Shown here in pieces: positions 4,590 through 51,486 of a DNA stretch of 64,000 bases; position 1 is the stretch's first letter; each line of letters starts with the position of its first letter. A program made the translations under genes and the position numbers. Under the pieces are notes generated by a model. That model was not told where the DNA came from. It was given only the letters and a program-made list of their open reading frames with translations, and made no database searches. Origin of the DNA: an uncultured Eggerthellaceae bacterium (lineage in GTDB: Bacteria > Actinomycetota > Coriobacteriia > Coriobacteriales > Eggerthellaceae); assembly GCA_905234785.1 (NCBI GenBank), contig CAJOIP010000002.1, positions 1 to 64,000 on the forward strand. Reading direction: 5' to 3'.

Positions 4590-5771
4590 ATGGTGCGCAA
4601 CATCGCGCTTCTCGGCTCAACGGGCTCGATTGGCACGCAAACCCTCGACGTCGCGCGACGCCATTCCGACAAGGTGAAGGTCGTCGCATTGGCGGCCGGC
4701 CGGCGCGGTGCAGAGGCATTTGCGCAGGCGGAGGAATTCGGCGCGCGTTTCGTGGCGCTCGGGCACGAGGCGCCCGGGTTGGAGGTTCCCGCCGGTGTGG
4801 ACGTCGCGTATGGCGCGCAGGCGGTCGCGGACCTCGTCGCGCTTCCCGAGGTCGACGTCGTCGTGAACGCGCTTGTGGGCGCGGCGGGCTTGCGGGCCAG
4901 CTACGAGACGCTGCGCGCAGGCAAGGTACTGGCGCTCGCCAACAAGGAATCGCTCGTGGTGGGCGGCGACCTCATCATGCCGCTTGCAGCACAGGTCGAC
5001 GAGCAGCGCCGAGCAGCCGGGCTCGCGCCTGCCCATGGGCCTGCCGGCGCGCTCATGCCCATCGACTCGGAGCACGGCGCGATTTACCAGTGCCTCATCG
5101 GCGAGGCGAGGCGGGAAGTGTCGCGGTTGTGGGTGACGGCATCGGGCGGCCCGTTCAGGGGGCGCACGCGCGACGAGCTGCGCGACATCACGGCGGCGCA
5201 GGCGCTCGCTCACCCCACGTGGAACATGGGGCCGAAGATCACGATCGACTCGTCAACGCTCATGAACAAGGGGCTCGAGGTCATCGAGGCTCATCACCTG
5301 TTCGACATGCCCTACGACCGCATCAGCGTCGTCGTGCAGCCGCAAAGCGCCATCCATTCCATGGTGGAGTTCTCCGACGGCTCGGTGAAGGCTCATTTGG
5401 GGACGACGGACATGCGCATCCCCATCCAGTACGCGCTGTCGTACCCCGAGCGCTGGGACGCGCCCGTCGAGCCGCTCGATTTCACGGCGCTGGGAAGCTT
5501 GGGGTTCGCCGCTCCCGACATCGAGACGTTCAAGTGCTTGGCGCTTGCGCGTGCGGCAGGCGAGCGCGGCGGCACGCTGCCCTGCGCTATGAACGCCGCC
5601 AACGAGGTTGCGGTTGCCGCGTTCCTCGAGGGGAAGGGCTCGTATCTGGGCATTGCCGAATGCGTCGAGGCGGTCATGGAAGCGCACGACGTGCAGGCGG
5701 TCGAGTCAATCGAGCAGCTTCTCGAAATCGACGCCTGGGCCCGCCGCGCAGCGTCCGAGAACGTAAGTTAA
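4590..5771 (+). CDS. dxr: 1-deoxy-D-xylulose-5-phosphate reductoisomerase
   Basis: LLGSTGSIGTQTLDV, ALANKESLVVGG, DSEHGAIYQCL, MNAANEVAVAAFL motifs. Confidence 0.97.
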   Translation: MVRNIALLGSTGSIGTQTLDVARRHSDKVKVVALAAGRRGAEAFAQAEEFGARFVALGHEAPGLEVPAGVDVAYGAQAVADLVALPEVDVVVNALVGAAGLRASYETLRAGKVLALANKESLVVGGDLIMPLAAQVDEQRRAAGLAPAHGPAGALMPIDSEHGAIYQCLIGEARREVSRLWVTASGGPFRGRTRDELRDITAAQALAHPTWNMGPKITIDSSTLMNKGLEVIEAHHLFDMPYDRISVVVQPQSAIHSMVEFSDGSVKAHLGTTDMRIPIQYALSYPERWDAPVEPLDFTALGSLGFAAPDIETFKCLALARAAGERGGTLPCAMNAANEVAVAAFLEGKGSYLGIAECVEAVMEAHDVQAVESIEQLLEIDAWARRAASENVS

Positions 5772-13711: not shown

Positions 13712-21326
<7,615 letters not shown>

Positions 21327-21856: not shown

Positions 21857-24800
21857 TTACTTGCGGAAACGCGCGAAGAAGCCCTGCTTCTTATCGGGCG
21901 GCATCTCGATTTCGCGGTGACCGGCCTCGAAGAACCCCTGAACCTCGTCCTCGTCGGCCTCGTTCGATTGCTTATCAGCCGTTTCCGCTTCGGCTGGGGC
22001 GGCCTCGTCGACGACGGTCTGAGCGGGCTGCTCCTCCTGAACCACCGGCTGTTCGGGCGTTTGCGTTTCCACCACGAGGCCTGCGAGATGAGCGGACAAG
22101 TCATCGGACGACATCGGGGCTTCAGGCTGCAGCGCGGCCTCGTCGGCCTCATCGGCTTCAAATGCCTGCGGCTCGCCGACGCCTTCGATAGCCGGCTTCG
22201 GTGCGAGGATGTCATCGAGCGTCATCTCCGTCAGCGGCTCGACAGGCTCTGGCTCATCCGGCTCGGCTTCCCCGACGCCCTCGATCGCTTCGCTCGAAGG
22301 CTCGGCAACATCGTCGAAGACCTCGGTTTCGGTGATGTCTGCGAAAGCCTCGGGTTCGGCAGCCTCTGCAATGGGCTCGGGCTCGAACGTCGGCTCTTCC
22401 TGGATGATGGCGGGGGCTTCTTGCAGCGGGACGGATTGTCCCGGCGTAGCGCTCAGCTGGGCGATGAGCTCGGAAACGCGATCGGATGACGCGGCGGGCT
22501 CGGGCTCTTGGGCCACGTTGCCGGACACGATCTCGTCAAGCGTCATGTCGTGGATGGCGAAGTCGGCCGCGTCTGCGCTCTCCGTGGTTTCAAAAGCCGT
22601 TTCCGCAACCTCGTCATACGGGTTGGTTGCGAGCGCGGCGCCGAGTTCCGCGTCGAGGGCGGAAAGGTCGACCGAGGCGATGGGCAGCGGCTCGATGGCC
22701 GGTTCTTGTTCGGGCTCGAGCGCAGACTCGGGCTCAGCGGGCTGCTCTTCGGCGGTTTCGGCGGCAGGTTCTTCAACCGTTTCGTCGGCAGGTTCAGGAA
22801 TGGCTTCGGGTTCGACCTCGACCTCAGCTTCGGGTTCGGGTTCGGGCTCAGGCTCAGGTTCGGCCTCGGGTTCGACCTCGACCTCGGGCTCGGGTTCGGG
22901 TTCGAGGTCGAGGTCGGTCTTGGCCTCAGGTTCGGGTTCAACCTCGGCCTCGGCGACCGGCTCGATTGCGTCTGCGCTGAAACCGGGAATCGGCTCGGCG
23001 ATGATCGGGGCGGAGGAGAGGATCTCCTCGATTGTGAGGTCGGTTAGCGCTGCCGCAGGCTCTTCCGCCACGGTCTCTTCTGCGGCAGGTTCCTCGAAGT
23101 CGACCTCGGGAAGGGGCTCGTCATCGAATTCAGGCTCGTCGGCGAGCTCGTCATCGATGACGATGACCGGGATCCTCTCGGTGATCGAATTCGATTCGCC
23201 GATAGAGCTCATCGTGGCTTCCTCGGCGGCGTCGGCGGCGCGCTTGATCAGCGTTGCCTGGGCGTCGAACGGAGGCTTGGGGTTGCCGTCCTCGTCGAGG
23301 TCGCAGAAGGCGCCGAGCGGCGTGTACGTGGCGTTCGGGCGCAGCTCGCGCAGTTTGGCGGTGTCGCGCATGCATACGTCGATGTAGGAAAGCACCTTGT
23401 TGCGGATCTCGCCGCCGGGAAGCGGCCAGGCGATTTCCACGCGCTTGTTCAGGTTGCGCGTCATGAGGTCGGCGCTCGAAAGGTAGATGACGCAGTCGTC
23501 GGCGGGGCCGAAGCAGTAGATGCGGCTATGCTCGAGCAAGCGGCCGACGATCGACACGACGCGCACGTTTTCGGTGGCGCCCTTCACCTGCGGGATGAGG
23601 CAGCAGATGCCGCGTATGAACAGCGTGATGCGCACGCCCGCGCACGACGCCTCGGAAATCTTCTCGAGGATGTCCTTGTCGGTGATGGAATTGGCCTTCA
23701 TGAACGCGCTGGCGGGCAGGCCCATGCGGGCGCGCTCGATCTGCTTGTCGAGGTTGTCGATGAGCATCGTCTTTATCTGCAGCGGCGCGACGCGCAGGAT
23801 GTCGTAGTTGTCCGACACGTTTTCCAGCTGCATGTTGCGGAAGAACTCGACGGCGTCGCGGCCGAACGCCTCGTCGGTCGTGATGAACGAGAAGTCGGTG
23901 TAGAGCTTGGCCGTCTTCTCGTTGTAATTGCCGGTGCCGAGCTGCGTGATGTGCTGGATCGCGCCATCGGGCGTGCGACGCGTGATGCAGCAGATCTTCG
24001 AATGCACCTTGTAATCGCGGAAGCCGTACAAAACGTTGCAGCCGGCTTGCTCGAAGCGCTGCGACCATTCGATGTTGTTGTTCTCGTCGAACCGCGCGCG
24101 CAGCTCGAAGAGCGCCGTGACCTCCTTGCCGGCGTCGGCGGCGGCGATGAGCGCCTCGGCCAGATGCGACTGGCTTGCCAGGCGGTACAGCGTGATCTTG
24201 ATCGAGATGACGTCGGGGTCGTTCGCGGCTTCGCGCAGAAGCTGCACGAACGGGTCCATGCTCTCGTACGGGTAGGACATGAGCACGTCGTGTTCGGCCA
24301 CCTGGTCGATGATGCGGCGCTTGCGGTCGAAGCACGTGGGCCATGCGGGCGTGAACGGAGGGTTCGACAGGCGCTCGCGCTTCTTGTCGGAAAGCCGGTT
24401 GCCCAGGCCCCACGTGAAGCTGAGGTCGAGCGGCACGATGGTGTCGTACATCTGGTAGCGCTTCAAATCGAGCTTCTTCAGCATGAGCTTTTCCATGACC
24501 GGCGACAGCGGCCGTTCGCATTCCAGGCGCACCGGAGCCAGGCGCGCGCGCTGCTTCAGCAGGCGCTTCATGTGCTCGCGGTAATCTTCGTCCTGCTCGT
24601 CGAAGCCCTGGTTGGCGTCGATGTCGGCGTTGCGCGTGACGCAGATGACGTTGGTGTGCTTGATCTTGTACATGCTGAAGATCTCGGGCACGAACATCTC
24701 GATGGCATGCTCGAGCAATATGAACTGGAAGCCGCGCCCGGGCAGCTTGATGACGCGCTCGCACTGGTGCGGCAGCGGGATGAGCCCGAGCACCACGCCC

Positions 24801-25546
24801 TCGGCGCCGCCCTTGTCCTTCTTGGACTTCTCCTTGTCCTTCTTCTTTTTCTTCTTGCCGCGCTCTGCCTCGGCCGCCTCGTCGTCGAGGCGCACGAGGA
24901 TGTAAAGCTTGCCGTTTTCCAAATGGGGGAACGGGTGGCGCGAGTTGATGATCTGCGGCGAGAGGAACGGCTCGATGTTGTGTTTCACGAGCCCGAACAG
25001 GTAGTTGCGCTGCTCGTCGGACAAATCGTCGGGGCGCAGGTGGCGCACGCCTTCCTTGGCGAGCTGCCCGCGCACGTGCTCGTAGGTCGATTCGTGGATA
25101 GGGTACAGTTCGTGACAGCGCTCGTGGATGGCGCGGATCTGCTCTTTGGCCGTCATGCCCGTCTTCGAGTCGATGACGGGCGGGTCGATGAACGACAGGT
25201 CGGTGAGGCTGCCGACGCGCACCATGAAGAACTCCTGGAGGTTGCTCCAGAAGATCGAGATGAAGTTCAGGCGCTCGAGCAGCGGCACCGACTCGTCGGC
25301 GCCTTGGTCGAGCACGCGCTCGTCGAACGTCAGCCAGGACAGTTCGCGGTTCTGCATGAAGACGTTCGAGCCGCCGTCCTCGTCCTCGCTCCCGTCGTCC
25401 CCGTCGTCGTATTCGTCGTAGGCATCGGCGTCTTCGGAGGCGTCCGCAAGGACCGCTTCGTCGGATGCGGGTGCCAGAGGCTTGAACGCTGAAACGGCGC
25501 CGAACTCGCCGAGGGTTGCGTCGTCGATGATGCTCTCTTCGCTCAT
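21857..25546 (-). CDS. ppk1: Polyphosphate kinase 1 with long acidic C-terminal extension
   Basis: [48 protein letters not shown] motifs; ~480-aa Glu/Pro-rich tail; ATG at 25546 (MSEES) after AGAGGAAA. Confidence 0.95.
22804..22950. repeat. Low-complexity tandem repeat encoding (EP)n/(EV)n in the PPK1 tail
   Basis: Repeated tcgggttcggg / tcgacctcg units; protein [45 protein letters not shown]. Confidence 0.85.
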
Positions 25547-25649
25547 ACGGTTTCCTCTGTTCACGATGGAATTAAAACAACTCTACACTATACCTCATCA
25601 GGGTGCATATTTGGTGTATCATCGAGGCATCTTAGAGAAAGGAAACCGC

Positions 25650-27407
25650 ATGCTCGAGCAGGTCGATTTCACGGTCGAGAAAATCTCGAAGGAAGACTAC
25701 AAGCCGCACCACAAAGAGCTCATCAACAAGCTCGTCGTGCTGCAACAGCAGGCGCGCGCCAAGGGAATCGGCCTTGTGGTGCTGTTCGAGGGCTGGGGCG
25801 GCGCCGGCAAGGGCAGCCGCATTTCCGACCTCATGTACGAGCTCGACGCCCGCGCCACTACGGTGCATGTGACGGAGGACTTCGACGTCGAGGCGGCGCG
25901 CAAGTTCGTGGGCTCCGAATGGGGCGTTTCCGATTTCAAGCCCGTCATGCAGGAATTCTGGCAGGCGCTCGGCGAGCGCGGGACCATCACGTTCTACGAC
26001 CGCGGCTGGTACACGGCCGCCATCGACCAGGCGCTGTTCGAGCTGACGGGCGACAAGCCCAAGGTCGCGAAGAAGCTCGACAAGAAATCGAAGGAGCATC
26101 CGCTTCTGGAAGACGGCGCCTCGAAGGCGCGCGGCGAGTTCCACGGCGACGTCGTCGCCAGCTACCAGCGCATCGCGCACAACTTCGAGCGGATGCTCGT
26201 CGACGACGGCTACATCGTCATCAAGCTGTTCGTGCACGTGTCGAAGGAAGCCCAGAAAAAGCGCCTCGAGCGCCTGCATGACAATCCGAACACGACGTGG
26301 CGCGTGAGCCCTGAGAAGCTCGCCCAGGTGAAGCATTACGACAAGGCCTACCAGCTGTACGACCGCCTGCTCGAGACGAGCAACTTCGCGTTCGCCCCTT
26401 GGACGCTCGTCAACGGCGAGGACAAGCGCGCCGCGAACCTGCAGGTCGCCCAAGCGCTCGTCGACGCCATCGAGCACGCGCTCGCGGCCAGGCCCGACGA
26501 AGCGGCCGAGGCCGCCAAGAAGAAGGCGGCGGAAAACTCCGCCCGCGCGGCTGCCGCCATCGGCGACGGCGGTGCCGAGGGAACTGAAGTCGACGATGCC
26601 GAGGCCGTGCGCAAAGCCGCCGAGGCGGAAGCGGCGCTTCAGCACTCGCAGGCCCCGCGCGGTTCCAACTACATCATCATGGCCGGCTACCCGCAAATCG
26701 ACCACGCGAAACCGAAGCCGGTCATCGAAACCGACGAGGAGTACAAAGCGCAGCTCAAGGCCGAGCAGGCGCGCTTCGCCGAACTCGAGCTGGAAATGTA
26801 CCAGAAGCGCGTGCCGCTCATGCTCATGTACGAAGGCTGGGATGCAGCGGGCAAGGGCGGCAACATCAAGCGCGTGTGCCAGGCCATCGACGCGCGCGCC
26901 TACACCATCTTCCCGTCGCCTGCGCCGACGAAGCCCGAGCTCATGCACCCGCACCTGTGGCGCTACTGGATACGCCTCCCGAAGGCCGGCCACGTCGGCA
27001 TCTACGACCGCAGCTGGTACGGCCGCGTGCTCGTCGAGCGCATCGAGGGCTTCTCGTCGACCGACCAATGGTCCCGCGCGTACGACGAGATCAACGCGTT
27101 CGAATACGAGCTCGTGCAATGGGGCGCCATCCTGCTGAAGTTCTGGGTCGACATTACGCCCGAAGAGCAACTGCGCCGCTTCGAGGCGCGTCAGGCCGAC
27201 CCCAACAAGATTTGGAAGATCACCGACGAGGATTGGCGCAACCGCGACAAGTATCCGCAGTACAAGCAGGCGGTCGACGACATGTTCCGCCTGACGTCCA
27301 CCACGTTCGCGCCGTGGATCGTGCTCGAGAGCGACGACAAGCGCTATGCCCGCGTCCAGGCGCTGCGCGCCATCAACGAGGCGCTCGAAGAGCGCATGCA
27401 CAAGTAG
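25650..27407 (+). CDS. pap: Two-domain PPK2-type polyphosphate:AMP phosphotransferase
   Basis: Two PPK2 modules: VLFEGWGGAGKGSRI...YDRGWYTAAI and LMYEGWDAAGKGGNIKR...YDRSWYGRVLVER. Confidence 0.93.
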   Translation: MLEQVDFTVEKISKEDYKPHHKELINKLVVLQQQARAKGIGLVVLFEGWGGAGKGSRISDLMYELDARATTVHVTEDFDVEAARKFVGSEWGVSDFKPVMQEFWQALGERGTITFYDRGWYTAAIDQALFELTGDKPKVAKKLDKKSKEHPLLEDGASKARGEFHGDVVASYQRIAHNFERMLVDDGYIVIKLFVHVSKEAQKKRLERLHDNPNTTWRVSPEKLAQVKHYDKAYQLYDRLLETSNFAFAPWTLVNGEDKRAANLQVAQALVDAIEHALAARPDEAAEAAKKKAAENSARAAAAIGDGGAEGTEVDDAEAVRKAAEAEAALQHSQAPRGSNYIIMAGYPQIDHAKPKPVIETDEEYKAQLKAEQARFAELELEMYQKRVPLMLMYEGWDAAGKGGNIKRVCQAIDARAYTIFPSPAPTKPELMHPHLWRYWIRLPKAGHVGIYDRSWYGRVLVERIEGFSSTDQWSRAYDEINAFEYELVQWGAILLKFWVDITPEEQLRRFEARQADPNKIWKITDEDWRNRDKYPQYKQAVDDMFRLTSTTFAPWIVLESDDKRYARVQALRAINEALEERMHK

Positions 27408-27410
27408 ACC

Positions 27411-28292
27411 ATGGCCGATTACAGCAACGCACATAGTCGGAAGAAGGGCGGACGCGGATGGCGCGCGGTCTTCGTCATCGCGCTCATCGTGCTCATCGCA
27501 TCGCTTGTGGCGCTCGGCGTCATCGCGTTCAGCTACTTCCAAGGGCAATGGAAATACGGGAAGGTGGCCGACGATTCGGGCTTCGACCCCAATGACAACG
27601 CGGGAGTTGCCGAGCTGAACGTCGACTGGGACGCGCTGCTCGCCGTGAACGGCGATACGGTCGCATGGCTGTACGTTCCGAACACCAACATCAACTACCC
27701 CGTGGTGCGCGGAGAAGACAACGAGTACTACCTCACGCACGATTTCGACGGAACGGCGGGCTGGCTTGCGAACTACGGCTCGGTGTTCATGGACTACCGC
27801 AACAACCCCGACTGGTCGGACGAGTTGTATTTCCTCTACGGCCATCATATGAACGACGGGTCGATGTTCACCGACGTGGCTGCCATGACCGATCAGGCGC
27901 GGTTCGACGAATGCCGCACGGTATACGTGCTCAGCCCGAAGGGCAACTTCAAGCTGAGGACGTTCGCCATGGTGCATGTGGCCGCCGACGACCCGCTCGT
28001 GCAACCCGGTTTCGCCACGCCCGAGGACATGGCGGCGTATGTGCAGGACAAGGTCAACCGCTCGGTCGTCGAGCCCGGCAAGCTGCCGGACGTGTCGAAG
28101 ATAAAGAAGGCGTTCGCGTTCGCCACATGCGATAACCTGTACAGCGACGGCCGATACGTGCTGTACGCGTATGTCGAGGAGACGTCTGCCGAGGGGCTGT
28201 CGGGCGATTTGGGCATCACGGCCGATGACGGGCAGGCGAACGGCTTTGTTAACGATTTGATGGTCGAAGACGAGGAACAGGAGATGCCATGA
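27411..28292 (+). CDS. Class B-like sortase
   Basis: N-terminal TM; VAWLYVPNTNINYPVVRGEDNEYYLTHDFDG, YGHHM, FAFATCDN. Confidence 0.9.
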   Translation: MADYSNAHSRKKGGRGWRAVFVIALIVLIASLVALGVIAFSYFQGQWKYGKVADDSGFDPNDNAGVAELNVDWDALLAVNGDTVAWLYVPNTNINYPVVRGEDNEYYLTHDFDGTAGWLANYGSVFMDYRNNPDWSDELYFLYGHHMNDGSMFTDVAAMTDQARFDECRTVYVLSPKGNFKLRTFAMVHVAADDPLVQPGFATPEDMAAYVQDKVNRSVVEPGKLPDVSKIKKAFAFATCDNLYSDGRYVLYAYVEETSAEGLSGDLGITADDGQANGFVNDLMVEDEEQEMP

Positions 28293-47515: not shown

Positions 47516-48415
47516 TTACGAGGCTTGCCGTAAGTCCTCTATGCCAAAGCCGGGCGATGGTTGGATGAGGGGTTCGGCATTCGCGGCGTGCTCCTTGCCG
47601 GTGGGGATGCGGTAGATGGAGAGCTTGCCCGAATCGGATTTGCGCACTTGGACGGCGCCTCGTTCGGCCAGCACGCGCTTGTAGGCGTTTCCGTATTTAG
47701 AAAAGGAGCGCGGGTAGGCGCCGACTGACGACAGCAGCTCGCAGAGCCACACGGGGTAGCCGCCTGCGCACTTGATTTCCATTATCACCTGGTCAGGCGC
47801 CGTGACGGGGTGGCGCTGCACCGAGTTTTCCTCCATGAGGTCGATGTAGCAGATGTCCTCGTCGAACGTGATGCGGTCGACGCAGTCTTCGTCTTCCGGG
47901 TCGACCTTGCACCATGCCTCGCGCAAACAGCTGATGAGCATCGAGGGCGCCAGGCCCTCGTAGCGGTTGAAGAACGCATCGAGCTCGCGTGCGATCTGCA
48001 CTTTGCCGGGAAGCAGCTCCTTGCTGCCATCAGTCCCGGGTATCGGCAGCTGCACCTGTGCTTGCTCGTACGGCATGCCGTTCATGTAGGCGCGCGCGCC
48101 CTCGGCGCTCATGCGCACGCGGCGCTTGTACACGATGCCCTTGTATTTCTTCTTTATCTCGACGAACACCGATTCCGCCTCGGAAAACGGGCCGTAGCTG
48201 CGGATGCGCAGCTTCTCCTTGTAAAGCGGCTTCTCGAGGGAACGGCAGATGAGCGAGCGGTCAGGCGTGTCCAAATACAGGCTGTCGATGCGCGTCGCGC
48301 CGTAGTCGTCTAAGCGCATGTGGGCGGCGAGTCCTGCTTTGATGGCCTCGCACTGGCCCGTCGTGATGAGGTACTTCTTCTCTTTGCGCTCGAACGTGTC
48401 TGCTGCAGTCGCCAT
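47516..48415 (-). CDS. VTC-domain (CYTH-like) polyphosphate polymerase
   Basis: ERKEKKYLIT, RIDSLYLDTPDRSLICRSLEKPLYKEKLRIRSYG, VFVEIKKKYKGIVYKRRVRM, VIMEIKCAGGYPVWL; start MATAADTF at 48415. Confidence 0.88.
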   Translation of the reverse strand: MATAADTFERKEKKYLITTGQCEAIKAGLAAHMRLDDYGATRIDSLYLDTPDRSLICRSLEKPLYKEKLRIRSYGPFSEAESVFVEIKKKYKGIVYKRRVRMSAEGARAYMNGMPYEQAQVQLPIPGTDGSKELLPGKVQIARELDAFFNRYEGLAPSMLISCLREAWCKVDPEDEDCVDRITFDEDICYIDLMEENSVQRHPVTAPDQVIMEIKCAGGYPVWLCELLSSVGAYPRSFSKYGNAYKRVLAERGAVQVRKSDSGKLSIYRIPTGKEHAANAEPLIQPSPGFGIEDLRQAS

Positions 48416-48445
48416 GTTGGGTTTCCTTTCCCTTGTGCCATCTGC

Positions 48446-48516
48446 ATGGTACGCGCCGCACCTGAATCGAATCTGAAAGCGCGCTTTCAGGCAGGTTTCA
48501 GCTTCTCGGCTAGAAT
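48446..48516. promoter_or_regulatory. Symmetrical divergent operator/promoter between VTC and RR genes
   Basis: CTGAAT 462-467, CTGAAA 473-478, TTTCAG 485-490, TTTCAG 496-501 (last three digits), both pairs 11-bp phased; -10 TAGAAT (48511-48516, +) and TACCAT (48451-48446, -). Confidence 0.75.
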
Positions 48517-48543
48517 GTGCTTGTACGCGGAAAGGCGGAACCA

Positions 48544-49218
48544 ATGCAGATACTCATCGTTGAAGACGACATTAGGCTGGCCCAGGCGGTCGGGAAGATC
48601 CTCGAGGAGAACGACTATCAGGTCGACATGGTGCACGACGGGCAATCGGGCCTCGACTACGCCGAGTCGGGCATCTACGACGTCGTGATCCTCGACGTCA
48701 TGTTGCCGAAGATGGACGGGTTCGTGGTATCGAAGCAACTGCGCCGCAAGGGCGTCGACACGCCGGTGCTCATGCTGACGGCGCGCTCCCAGATTCCCGA
48801 CAAGATAGAAGGGCTCGATTCGGGCGCTGACGATTACATGACCAAGCCGTTCTCGCCGGCGGAGCTGCTCGCGCATCTGCGCGCCCTCACGCGCCGCACG
48901 GGCCAGGTCGTGTTCGAGACGCTCGCGTTTTCCGACCTCGAGCTGAACCTGGAAAGCCACGACTTGAAATGCGGCAGCAAGTCCATCAACTTGTCGTACA
49001 AGGAGTTCTCGCTCATAAACATCCTCATGGCCAACCACGGCCAGATCGTGTCGAAAGACACCCTGATATCGAAAGTCTGGGGCGTCGAGTCGACCGCAGT
49101 CGATAATAATGTCGAGGCGTACGTCTCGTTCTTGCGCAAGAAGCTGAAGTTCCTGGGCTCGAAGGCTCAGATCGAGACGATTCGGAAAGTGGGATACCGC
49201 CTGACCGACGAGGGTTAG
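48544..49218 (+). CDS. OmpR/PhoB-family response regulator
   Basis: MQILIVEDDIRLAQ, VILDVMLPKMDGF, TKPFSPAELLAHLRAL, C-terminal winged helix VETIRKVGYRL-type. Confidence 0.95.
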   Translation: MQILIVEDDIRLAQAVGKILEENDYQVDMVHDGQSGLDYAESGIYDVVILDVMLPKMDGFVVSKQLRRKGVDTPVLMLTARSQIPDKIEGLDSGADDYMTKPFSPAELLAHLRALTRRTGQVVFETLAFSDLELNLESHDLKCGSKSINLSYKEFSLINILMANHGQIVSKDTLISKVWGVESTAVDNNVEAYVSFLRKKLKFLGSKAQIETIRKVGYRLTDEG

Positions 49219-49219
49219 C

Positions 49220-50569
49220 ATGCTCAAAAAACTACGCATCAAGTTCGTGGCGATCATCATGGCCTCGGTGGCCGTGGTGCTCGCCATCGTGTTCACGGGA
49301 ATCTGCATATCCGAATACCAGCGCAGCATGTCGACGGTGAACGAGGCGCTGAGCTCGTCGATCGACCGGGCGAGCAACGACGTCCTCAACGCACCCGATC
49401 CGTTCATGCGGGGCGGCGGCATGCGCTTCGACATCGAGGGCGTTTTCGACGACTTCGATGATTACGACGAGCTATCCGAGATGCTGGACGAGTTCATCGA
49501 GGATGGGGGATTCGGCGGCCCGCGCATCGGCGGCGGGCGCGAGGAAGAGCGATCGCTCGTGCCCGTGGCTGTGTACGTTCAAGATTCCTCCGGGTCGTAC
49601 ACCGCCGTTTCCCGCTATGCCACCGCTTACATCGAAGAGGATGTGCTCGCCACCGCTTCAAGCCAGCTTGCAGGCGTCGGGGAAGGGAGCGGCGAGCTTT
49701 CGGGCTTGGGGCTCGTGTACGAGAAGCGCTCAGTCGAAGGGCTTACCTACGTCGCCTTCGCCGACGCGTCGTATGCGTCGAGCTGGCAGGCGCTCGCGGT
49801 CTCGCTTTTGATTGCCGGGCTGCTCACCCTTGCCGTGTTCTTCGTGATCGCGTTGCTGCTGTCGAAGTGGGCGCTCAAACCAGTCGAAGAGGCGTGGACC
49901 GCTCAGCGCCAATTCGTGGCCGACGCATCGCATGAGCTGAAAACGCCGCTGACGGTCGTGCTGGCGAACACGTCTATTCTTTTGAAGCATCCCGAGGCGA
50001 CCATTGCGAACCAAAGCCAATGGATCGAGAGCACTCAAGTGGAAGCCGAGAGCATGCAGGGCCTCGTGAACGAGATGCTCGAATTGGCCCAAGTCGAATC
50101 GCGCGCCAACGTGCAGCATGAGCCGCTCGATTTTAGCGACATGGTTGCAGGCGAGACGCTGCAGTTCGAATCGGTGGCCTTCGAGCGCGGCTGCCGGTTC
50201 GAGGAATCGGTTGCCGAGGGCATCACGGTTTCCGGCGATGCGCAACGCCTGCGCAAGATGACGTCGACGCTCATCGAGAACGCGTTGAAGTACGTCGACG
50301 ATGGCGGCCTCGTGGAAGTAAGGCTCGAAGCCAAGGGCAACGTCGCGCACATGACCATCCACAACACCGGCTCGACCATCTCGCCCGAAGACCTTCCGCA
50401 CATCTTCGACCGCTTCTACCGCACCGACAAGGCGCGCACGTCCGGTACCGGCGGCTTCGGCCTCGGCCTCGCCATCGCCCGCGAAACCGCCCGCGAGCAC
50501 GCCGGCGACATCACCTGCAGCAGCAGCGGCTCCGGCACCACCTTCACCGTAACGCTCCCAACAGCATAG
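49220..50569 (+). CDS. Sensor histidine kinase
   Basis: Two TMs; FVADASHELKTPLTVV H-box, IFDRFYRTDKART, GFGLGLAIA. Confidence 0.95.
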   Translation: MLKKLRIKFVAIIMASVAVVLAIVFTGICISEYQRSMSTVNEALSSSIDRASNDVLNAPDPFMRGGGMRFDIEGVFDDFDDYDELSEMLDEFIEDGGFGGPRIGGGREEERSLVPVAVYVQDSSGSYTAVSRYATAYIEEDVLATASSQLAGVGEGSGELSGLGLVYEKRSVEGLTYVAFADASYASSWQALAVSLLIAGLLTLAVFFVIALLLSKWALKPVEEAWTAQRQFVADASHELKTPLTVVLANTSILLKHPEATIANQSQWIESTQVEAESMQGLVNEMLELAQVESRANVQHEPLDFSDMVAGETLQFESVAFERGCRFEESVAEGITVSGDAQRLRKMTSTLIENALKYVDDGGLVEVRLEAKGNVAHMTIHNTGSTISPEDLPHIFDRFYRTDKARTSGTGGFGLGLAIARETAREHAGDITCSSSGSGTTFTVTLPTA

Positions 50570-50581
50570 GACCTCAAGCGG

Positions 50582-50717
50582 AAGGGCGTAGCCTCTGGCT
50601 GCGGAAGGGGGCCGAGGGCGATTCCGCAGCCGGATGCGGCATCGATCGGTAAAGCCATGCGAGCGAGGACAAGCCCGAACCCCCTTCCAACCGCAGAGGA
50701 CGGACGGTTGCGCCCTT
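50582..50717 (-). repeat. Structured repeat E2, opposite orientation to E1
   Basis: Minus strand GGAAGGGGG-TTCGGGCTTGTCCTCGCTCGCATGG...GCTGCGGAATCGCCCTCGG-CCCCCTTCC plus outer arms CCTCTG/CAGAGG and AAGGGCG/CGCCCTT. Confidence 0.75.
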
Positions 50718-50748
50718 TCAGCATCTTTTAAGCTTCCTTTCTTACCAT
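50716..50748 (+). promoter_or_regulatory. DUF4956 gene operator/promoter
   Basis: TTTCAG (50716-50721) N5 TTTAAG (50727-50732) N10 TACCAT (50743-50748). Confidence 0.65.
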
Positions 50749-50787
50749 GACCTCATCATCCGAAAGGTCTTGGGAAAGGAATCAACC

Positions 50788-51486
50788 ATGGATGCATTGT
50801 TCACTTCGGTGCTCGGCACGACCGAGTCGGCCATGACGACGGTGACAACCGCGGGGTTCATGTGGTGCACGCTCGCATCGATCGTCCTCGGCTTGGCGTG
50901 CGCGCTCATCTACATGTACAAGCACGACTACTCGAAGAACTTCGTCGTGACGCTGGCGCTCATGCCCGTCATCGTGCAGATGGTCATCACGCTCGTCAAC
51001 GGCAACCTCGGCGCGGGCGTGGCCGTCATGGGCGTGTTCAACCTCGTGCGCTTCCGCTCGATAGCGGGCACGGCGAAGGACATCGGAAGCGTGTTCTTGG
51101 CGATGGCCATCGGCCTTGCCACCGGCATGGGCTACATCGGCGTCGCCGCCATCCTCACGGTCGTCGTGGGCGTGTTCAACATCATCTACGTCACGACGCC
51201 GTTCGGAAGCCCGCGCGAGTCTGCCAAGAAGAAGCAGCTTAAGATCACGGTACCCGAAGACCTCGAGTTCGAAGGCGCGTTCGACGAGGTGCTCGCGAAC
51301 TACACGGCGACGTGCGAGCTGCAAAACGTCTCGACGAGCAACATGGGCAGCCTGTACCAGCTCGAGTACCTGGTGTCCATGAAGGCCGACGGCCTCGAGA
51401 AGCGCATGATCGACGAGCTGCGCTGCCTGAACGGCAACCTGAAGATCTCGCTTGGATCTCCGCAGGTGAAACGCGAAGTCCTGTAA
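50788..51486 (+). CDS. DUF4956-family membrane protein
   Basis: Four predicted TMs then cytosolic domain; GAGVAVMGVFNLVRFRSIAGTAKDIGSVFLAMAIGLATGMGY. Confidence 0.85.
   Translation: MDALFTSVLGTTESAMTTVTTAGFMWCTLASIVLGLACALIYMYKHDYSKNFVVTLALMPVIVQMVITLVNGNLGAGVAVMGVFNLVRFRSIAGTAKDIGSVFLAMAIGLATGMGYIGVAAILTVVVGVFNIIYVTTPFGSPRESAKKKQLKITVPEDLEFEGAFDEVLANYTATCELQNVSTSNMGSLYQLEYLVSMKADGLEKRMIDELRCLNGNLKISLGSPQVKREVL

Follow-up and report, generated by a model that had tools for sequence, protein, structure and literature searches.

A candidate two-component regulon for a bacterial VTC-family tunnel protein, its DUF4956 neighbour and a Cthe_2159-type surface protein

The VTC family (PF09359) is known from the eukaryotic VTC complex, in which the polyphosphate polymerase Vtc4 (PDB entries 3g3q and 8i6v) encloses its active site in a tunnel. 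Here we describe a VTC gene with its neighbours in an uncultured Eggerthellaceae bacterium, found in a stretch of 64,000 nucleotides (the window; contig CAJOIP010000002.1 of GenBank assembly GCA_905234785.1). The gene stands beside a two-component system (TCS), consisting of a response regulator (RR) and a histidine kinase (HK), and a gene for a DUF4956 membrane protein. The window protein shares with the eukaryotic complex the tunnel fold, the aligned tunnel lysines and arginines, and a membrane partner encoded nearby. The eukaryotic enzyme carries SPX and fused membrane domains, and the window protein has neither. The eukaryotic partner is the Vtc1-like three-helix protein, whereas here it would be the MgtC-like DUF4956, and Thr198 of Vtc4 is replaced by glutamate. 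Eukaryotic VTC is controlled by inositol pyrophosphate, while control in the window appears to be transcriptional, through the TCS.

Among gut Clostridia and Coriobacteriia, VTC proteins are common and as a rule are encoded next to a member of this unstudied membrane family. They are described in CotH-VTC-DUF4956 cassettes, either Pel-linked (PMC7112168) or in NELoc-2 (PMC2879425), where VTC is likewise followed directly by DUF4956. These cassettes differ in their short VTC (~234 aa, 25–27% identical), in the presence of CotH and in having no linked TCS of the window type. The literature that we searched, an incomplete set, contained such cassettes but no linked TCS, no functional study of these genes and no paper testing any bacterial VTC protein. 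For the regulatory part, the closest described systems are CiaRH and PmrAB/BasRS. They share with the window system an OmpR-family RR, a nearly identical direct repeat of two hexamers spaced by 5 bp, promoters made of repeat and -10 element, and a regulon of several promoters. The CiaR box of streptococci is NTTAAG-N5-TTTAAG (PMC3091779), the family consensus here is TTTCAG, and the targets are VTC, DUF4956 and Cthe_2159; the systems are likened through the operator, not by orthology.

We propose that the acidic-sensor membrane HK phosphorylates the CiaR/PmrA-like RR. The RR would bind TTTMAG-N5-TTTMAG repeats 9–10 bp upstream of the -10 element and activate its own operon, the VTC gene, the MgtC-like DUF4956 gene and an unlinked Cthe_2159 gene. 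VTC would most likely make polyphosphate from ATP in the cytosol by means of its conserved tunnel residues. DUF4956 would be its membrane partner (a tether, a regulator or an exit path), and the Cthe_2159 beta-helix protein would act at the cell surface. To this explanation as a whole we assign a probability of about 0.62. A dedicated regulon of RR-HK, VTC, DUF4956 and Cthe_2159 is well supported in silico.

The locus and its operator

The VTC gene lies on the minus strand (47516–48415; 299 aa, Pfam E = 2.2e-39). Start sites were set by rule, and for VTC the ATG at 48415, with AAAGGAAACCC before it, was taken; the frame starting at 48544, as first read, is over-long at its N-terminus. Divergent from VTC, on the plus strand, are the genes of an OmpR/PhoB-family RR (48544–49218, 224 aa) and a membrane sensor HK (49220–50569, 449 aa), and the DUF4956 gene is downstream (50788–51486, plus strand, 232 aa; PF16316, E = 1.6e-17). 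An earlier note made from the sequence alone had described this arrangement, and both gene calls and Pfam matches bear it out. The pair is of the OmpR type, with receiver and winged helix in the RR (Response_reg and Trans_reg_C) and HisKA and HATPase_c in the kinase. The same note had CotH missing here, and indeed PF08757 has no match in the whole source genome (2.26 Mb, 83 contigs). Full-length PDB relatives of the RR are PhoP, DrrD and BasR/PmrA.

A direct repeat TTTCAG-N5-TTTCAG is present on each strand of the VTC|RR intergenic region. In the VTC promoter (48446–48478, minus strand) the putative operator TTTCAGATTCGATTCAG (48462–48478) is followed after N10 by TACCAT (48446–48451). In the RR-HK promoter (48485–48516, plus strand) the putative operator TTTCAGGCAGGTTTCAG (48485–48501) is followed after N9 by TAGAAT (48511–48516). 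A third promoter precedes DUF4956 (50716–50748, plus strand), with putative operator TTTCAGCATCTTTTAAG (50716–50732), N10 and TACCAT (50743–50748). These are the only three matches in the window, where 0.24 are expected by chance, and all three lie within the VTC module. The 2.26-Mb genome holds only three perfect matches, two of which are the RR and DUF4956 promoters.

Since the operator was first recognised in the window, that stretch does not count as independent evidence; relatives, on which it was tested afterwards, do, as do unlinked Cthe_2159 genes and DUF4956 genes that have moved. Shuffles, co-transcribed DUF4956 genes and CotH-type loci served as controls. The family survey covered 140 Eggerthellaceae genomes, mostly draft or metagenome-derived, sampled at species level. 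TTTMAG-N5-TTTMAG with at most one mismatch occurs on 87 of the 88 strands of 44 divergent VTC|RR intergenic regions and faces both genes. TAnnnT stands exactly 9–10 bp behind the repeat on 81 of the 88. Shuffling the same 44 regions gave only 5 matches in 4400. Perfect matches number 0–6 per genome in 16 relatives (0–2 for a reversed control pattern), and in many of these relatives one or two of the matches are located at the VTC|RR locus.

Loci of two types are observed in the family. Type A consists of the short VTC (~234 aa), DUF4956 and CotH, and type B, the kind in the window, of a longer VTC and DUF4956, usually with RR-HK divergent from VTC. Operator and -10 element occur together in 63 of 68 upstream regions of type-B VTC genes, and RR is preceded by the operator in 50 of 56 family loci; upstream of VTC in CotH-type loci it was found in none of nine. 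Where DUF4956 lies behind the HK, an operator of its own is present in five of five loci, against 4 of 63 others. The site before RR implies that the TCS would regulate itself, and the repeat adjoining the -10 element suggests activation. A dedicated and self-regulated TCS, as first proposed in the earlier note, is strongly supported, since the same operator faces RR, VTC and the displaced DUF4956.

VTC is found in 92 of the 140 genomes and DUF4956 in 90, always together with VTC. In the two genomes with VTC only (G124 and G042), the contigs concerned are short or broken. DUF4956 follows VTC directly in most type-B loci, whereas the window and four relatives of its genus have it behind the HK. 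The usual gene order has been rearranged in this lineage, DUF4956 having moved behind the HK. Family-wide linkage of VTC and DUF4956, together with an RR-HK pair that diverges from VTC in many genera, shows that the arrangement is not due to chance. Clostridia, too, commonly have type-B-like VTC-DUF4956 loci with RR-HK nearby, either divergent or in the same direction. The linkage of VTC, DUF4956 and TCS is thus seen in two phyla with varying gene order, and the adjacency which the earlier note expected among relatives is kept in most family loci and in many Clostridia. CotH was considered as a missing partner and rejected, as it belongs to the short-VTC cassette and is absent from the source genome. 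Its association with VTC overall is weak (27 of 33 CotH genomes, p = 0.035; Fisher tests on co-occurrence ignore phylogeny).

Clustering of neighbouring open reading frames gave a fourth component, a secreted protein of ~610 aa encoded downstream of DUF4956. Its cluster counts 103 copies, each encoded no more than 4 kb away and in the same orientation as VTC. The protein belongs to the Cthe_2159 family (PF14262) of beta-helix proteins, whose founder in Clostridium thermocellum binds polysaccharide in a Ca2+-dependent manner (PMC8746771). A strong PF14262 match (>100 bits) is present in 75 of 79 type-B VTC genomes but in only 3 of 13 genomes with CotH-type loci alone. In the source genome the gene is unlinked, on contig C44, and encodes 440 aa with a Gly/Met-rich tail; the protein matches PF14262 at 3.2e-74 and the C. 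thermocellum structure (PDB entry 4peu) at 1e-31. Homologues of this copy are found in 116 of the loci fetched around VTC, and in most relatives the gene lies beside VTC-DUF4956. Although unlinked, the C44 gene stands behind the TCS operator (5736–5752, L215), which reads TTTCAGGGTGAATTCAG-N10-TACCAT, and probably represents the fourth component, moved away from the locus. Of the 19 unlinked Cthe_2159 genes having upstream sequence, 16 stand behind the operator, the one in the source genome included. This putative regulon member, the rearranged gene order and the relation of DUF4956 to MgtC discussed below go beyond the earlier note.

The VTC and DUF4956 proteins

A VTC profile of the family finds Vtc4 (3g3q) at 5.6e-18. 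When the AlphaFold2 (AF2) model of the window protein (pLDDT 87.5) is compared with PDB folds, Vtc2/3/4 chains take each of the first 13 places, and acidic-patch triphosphate tunnel metalloenzymes (TTM) follow well behind. Alignment to chain 8i6v_E places K14, R70, R72, K88, K97, R165 and R181 at Vtc4 K200, R264, R266, K281, K294, R361 and R373, respectively. None of these seven tunnel residues varies among 50 type-B proteins. Two further invariant residues, E213 and K240, stand where they would be expected in the C-terminal part, beyond the end of the HMMER alignment to Vtc4, and are probably its metal-site Glu426 and catalytic Lys458. In Vtc4 itself, R264, R266 and E426 are the positions substituted to inactivate the enzyme (PMC9911596). 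By profile alignment and fold prediction, then, the protein has kept the tunnel Lys and Arg residues, and probably also the catalytic Glu, on which its assignment in the earlier note depends. By analogy with Vtc4, its product would be polyphosphate.

The protein could instead use its tunnel to form or break down some other phosphorylated compound, which would serve to modify secreted proteins or surface polysaccharide. Its surroundings speak for this. The sister cassettes pair VTC-DUF4956 with CotH, Pel polysaccharide clusters adjoin VTC-DUF4956 in streptococci, clostridia and bifidobacteria (PMC7112168), and the putative regulon partner is a secreted carbohydrate-binding protein. In addition, the R-x-E-x-K motif is a hybrid between RxTxK of Vtc4 and the motif of acidic-patch TTM enzymes (PMC4641920). 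However, Vtc4 comes first in both fold and profile searches with the TTM hydrolases far behind, and the seven aligned tunnel residues of Vtc4 are kept. We consider a different compound rather unlikely.

In the AF2 model of DUF4956 (pLDDT 87), five hydrophobic helices are followed by a C-terminal ACT-like domain. This is the architecture of MgtC/SapB (PF02308), and the two profiles are colinear. In hhalign, DUF4956 matches 17 MgtC proteins with a probability of 93.5 and E of 2.3e-7 over 205 colinear columns, and reversed or shuffled controls reach at most 0.9%. Circularly permuted controls still scored, as they keep most of the profile, and the reversed and shuffled ones are the meaningful controls. 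The relation rests on hhalign, since a sequence search against the PDB gave no match and in the fold search just the ACT-like tail matched ACT/PII-like folds, MgtC (2lqj) among them, weakly (E = 1.8e-2). PF02308 has no match in the source genome, and Pfam gives DUF4956 alone for this protein. It also has motifs of its own, VRFRS and PEDL, and in Eggerthellaceae always occurs with VTC. By profile comparison, DUF4956 is a distant relative of MgtC and not a PF02308 member.

This relation raises another role for DUF4956, that of an MgtC-like feedback regulator acting on the HK or on some other membrane target, outside any complex for polyphosphate synthesis or exit. It is a serious rival because MgtC of Salmonella binds the catalytic domain of PhoR and stimulates it (PMC9239213). 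The homology to MgtC, distant as it is, extends over the whole length, and in the window DUF4956 comes directly after the HK. Across genomes, however, DUF4956 tracks VTC: it is absent where the kinase occurs without VTC, and it accompanies VTC in the CotH cassettes, which lack a TCS of this kind. We find this role improbable, and favour DUF4956 as the membrane partner of VTC, with which it may form a complex.

Weighing the proposed regulon

That nothing but inheritance keeps the genes together, the TCS being a general envelope-stress system with an operator near VTC by accident and no shared function, would fit genomes that keep the TCS without VTC and operator-like sites at other genes, but is very improbable, as neutral linkage would not predict an operator that follows DUF4956 and Cthe_2159 when they move off the locus, nor does it sit well with linkage across two phyla despite differing gene order.

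Several observations weigh against the dedicated regulon with polyphosphate as product. The operator is weaker in Clostridia, where only 27 of 67 VTC genes have it with at most one mismatch; it is TTTAAG-flavoured there, and the -10 element is present in 25 of these 27. A few type-B loci (e.g. L088 and L103) have no TCS nearby, and about 17 family genomes carry the kinase but no VTC. In genome G085 (contig C154, L274) an HK of the window HK family and a Cthe_2159 gene lie ~1.3 kb apart on opposite strands, the latter behind a perfect operator, but VTC was not found in this genome. Together with the ~17 genomes, this means that VTC is not the sole possible target of the TCS and suggests that the surface protein may be its more constant output. 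The VTC protein has no SPX or membrane domain, being by Pfam a VTC domain alone. Finally, an invariant glutamate, E12, stands where Vtc4 has Thr198. The Thr198-type position is acidic in TTM hydrolases (PMC4641920), with the match to the E12 position drawn by us, and the activity of VTC could therefore differ from that of Vtc4.

The extracytoplasmic domain of the window HK comprises ~150 aa with 29 acidic and 10 basic residues. This sensor region is a conserved family of its own, with a median of 24 acidic and 10 basic residues in the family set. PmrB and PhoQ sense cations or cationic peptides through an acidic sensor, and such a domain would suit the same task here. The signal may be of an envelope or cation type. 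A more elaborate form of the proposal would combine signal-controlled synthesis with export: VTC would polymerise in the cytosol, DUF4956 would pass polyphosphate across the membrane and Cthe_2159 would hold a surface layer of polyphosphate and cations. Such a system would be a counterpart of the eukaryotic VTC complex put together from unrelated membrane parts. We regard this form as speculative and doubtful. The operator, the fixed partners and the MgtC relation lead to a concrete question, namely which signal calls for VTC, DUF4956 and Cthe_2159, and whether the product is polyphosphate.

Polyphosphate kinases and other operator-like sites

The window also encodes PPK1 (21857–25564, minus strand) and PPK2 (within 25482–27407, plus strand), and their coordinates agree with a position ~22 kb upstream of the VTC module, as the earlier note had it. 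No operator was found near either gene in the window. If VTC makes polyphosphate, the genome would have a transcriptionally controlled route to it apart from PPK1/PPK2. A sortase-domain protein (27411–28292) adjoins PPK2; as far as tested, it has no relation to the VTC module.

Operator-like sites are seen at further genes of the source genome. On contig C13, the operator TTTAAGGTTCCCTTAAG (15706–15722, L213) with TATTCT precedes a 502-aa repeat-rich, lipoprotein-like protein without Pfam match, a possible regulon member. On contig C22, a one-mismatch operator (16718–16734, L216) with CACAAT precedes a large secreted beta-helix-repeat protein of at least 839 aa. A second OmpR-type response regulator is preceded by an operator and, 11 bp further on, TATTAT (C13:40003, L214), and its counterpart in the relative G118 is preceded by a perfect operator (C125:5744, L309); a regulatory cascade is possible. 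Operator-like sites with a good -10 element are found before a small PGPGW-like membrane protein (C5:38385, L211) and before a LytR-CpsA-Psr protein (C24:21051, L223).

A perfect match at C14:37985 (L210) was not counted as a regulon member, as it has no -10 element and no clear gene start. Similar matches with similar downstream frames occur in two genus relatives (L310 and L323), and conservation of a coding sequence may be all that they show. The one-mismatch sites seen ahead of dnaK and at several places inside genes are likely due to chance. In another relative (G121, C18:8562, L325), a perfect repeat without a -10 element at the usual distance is upstream of a protein judged by eye to be HtrA/trypsin-like; streptococcal CiaR likewise has htrA among its targets.

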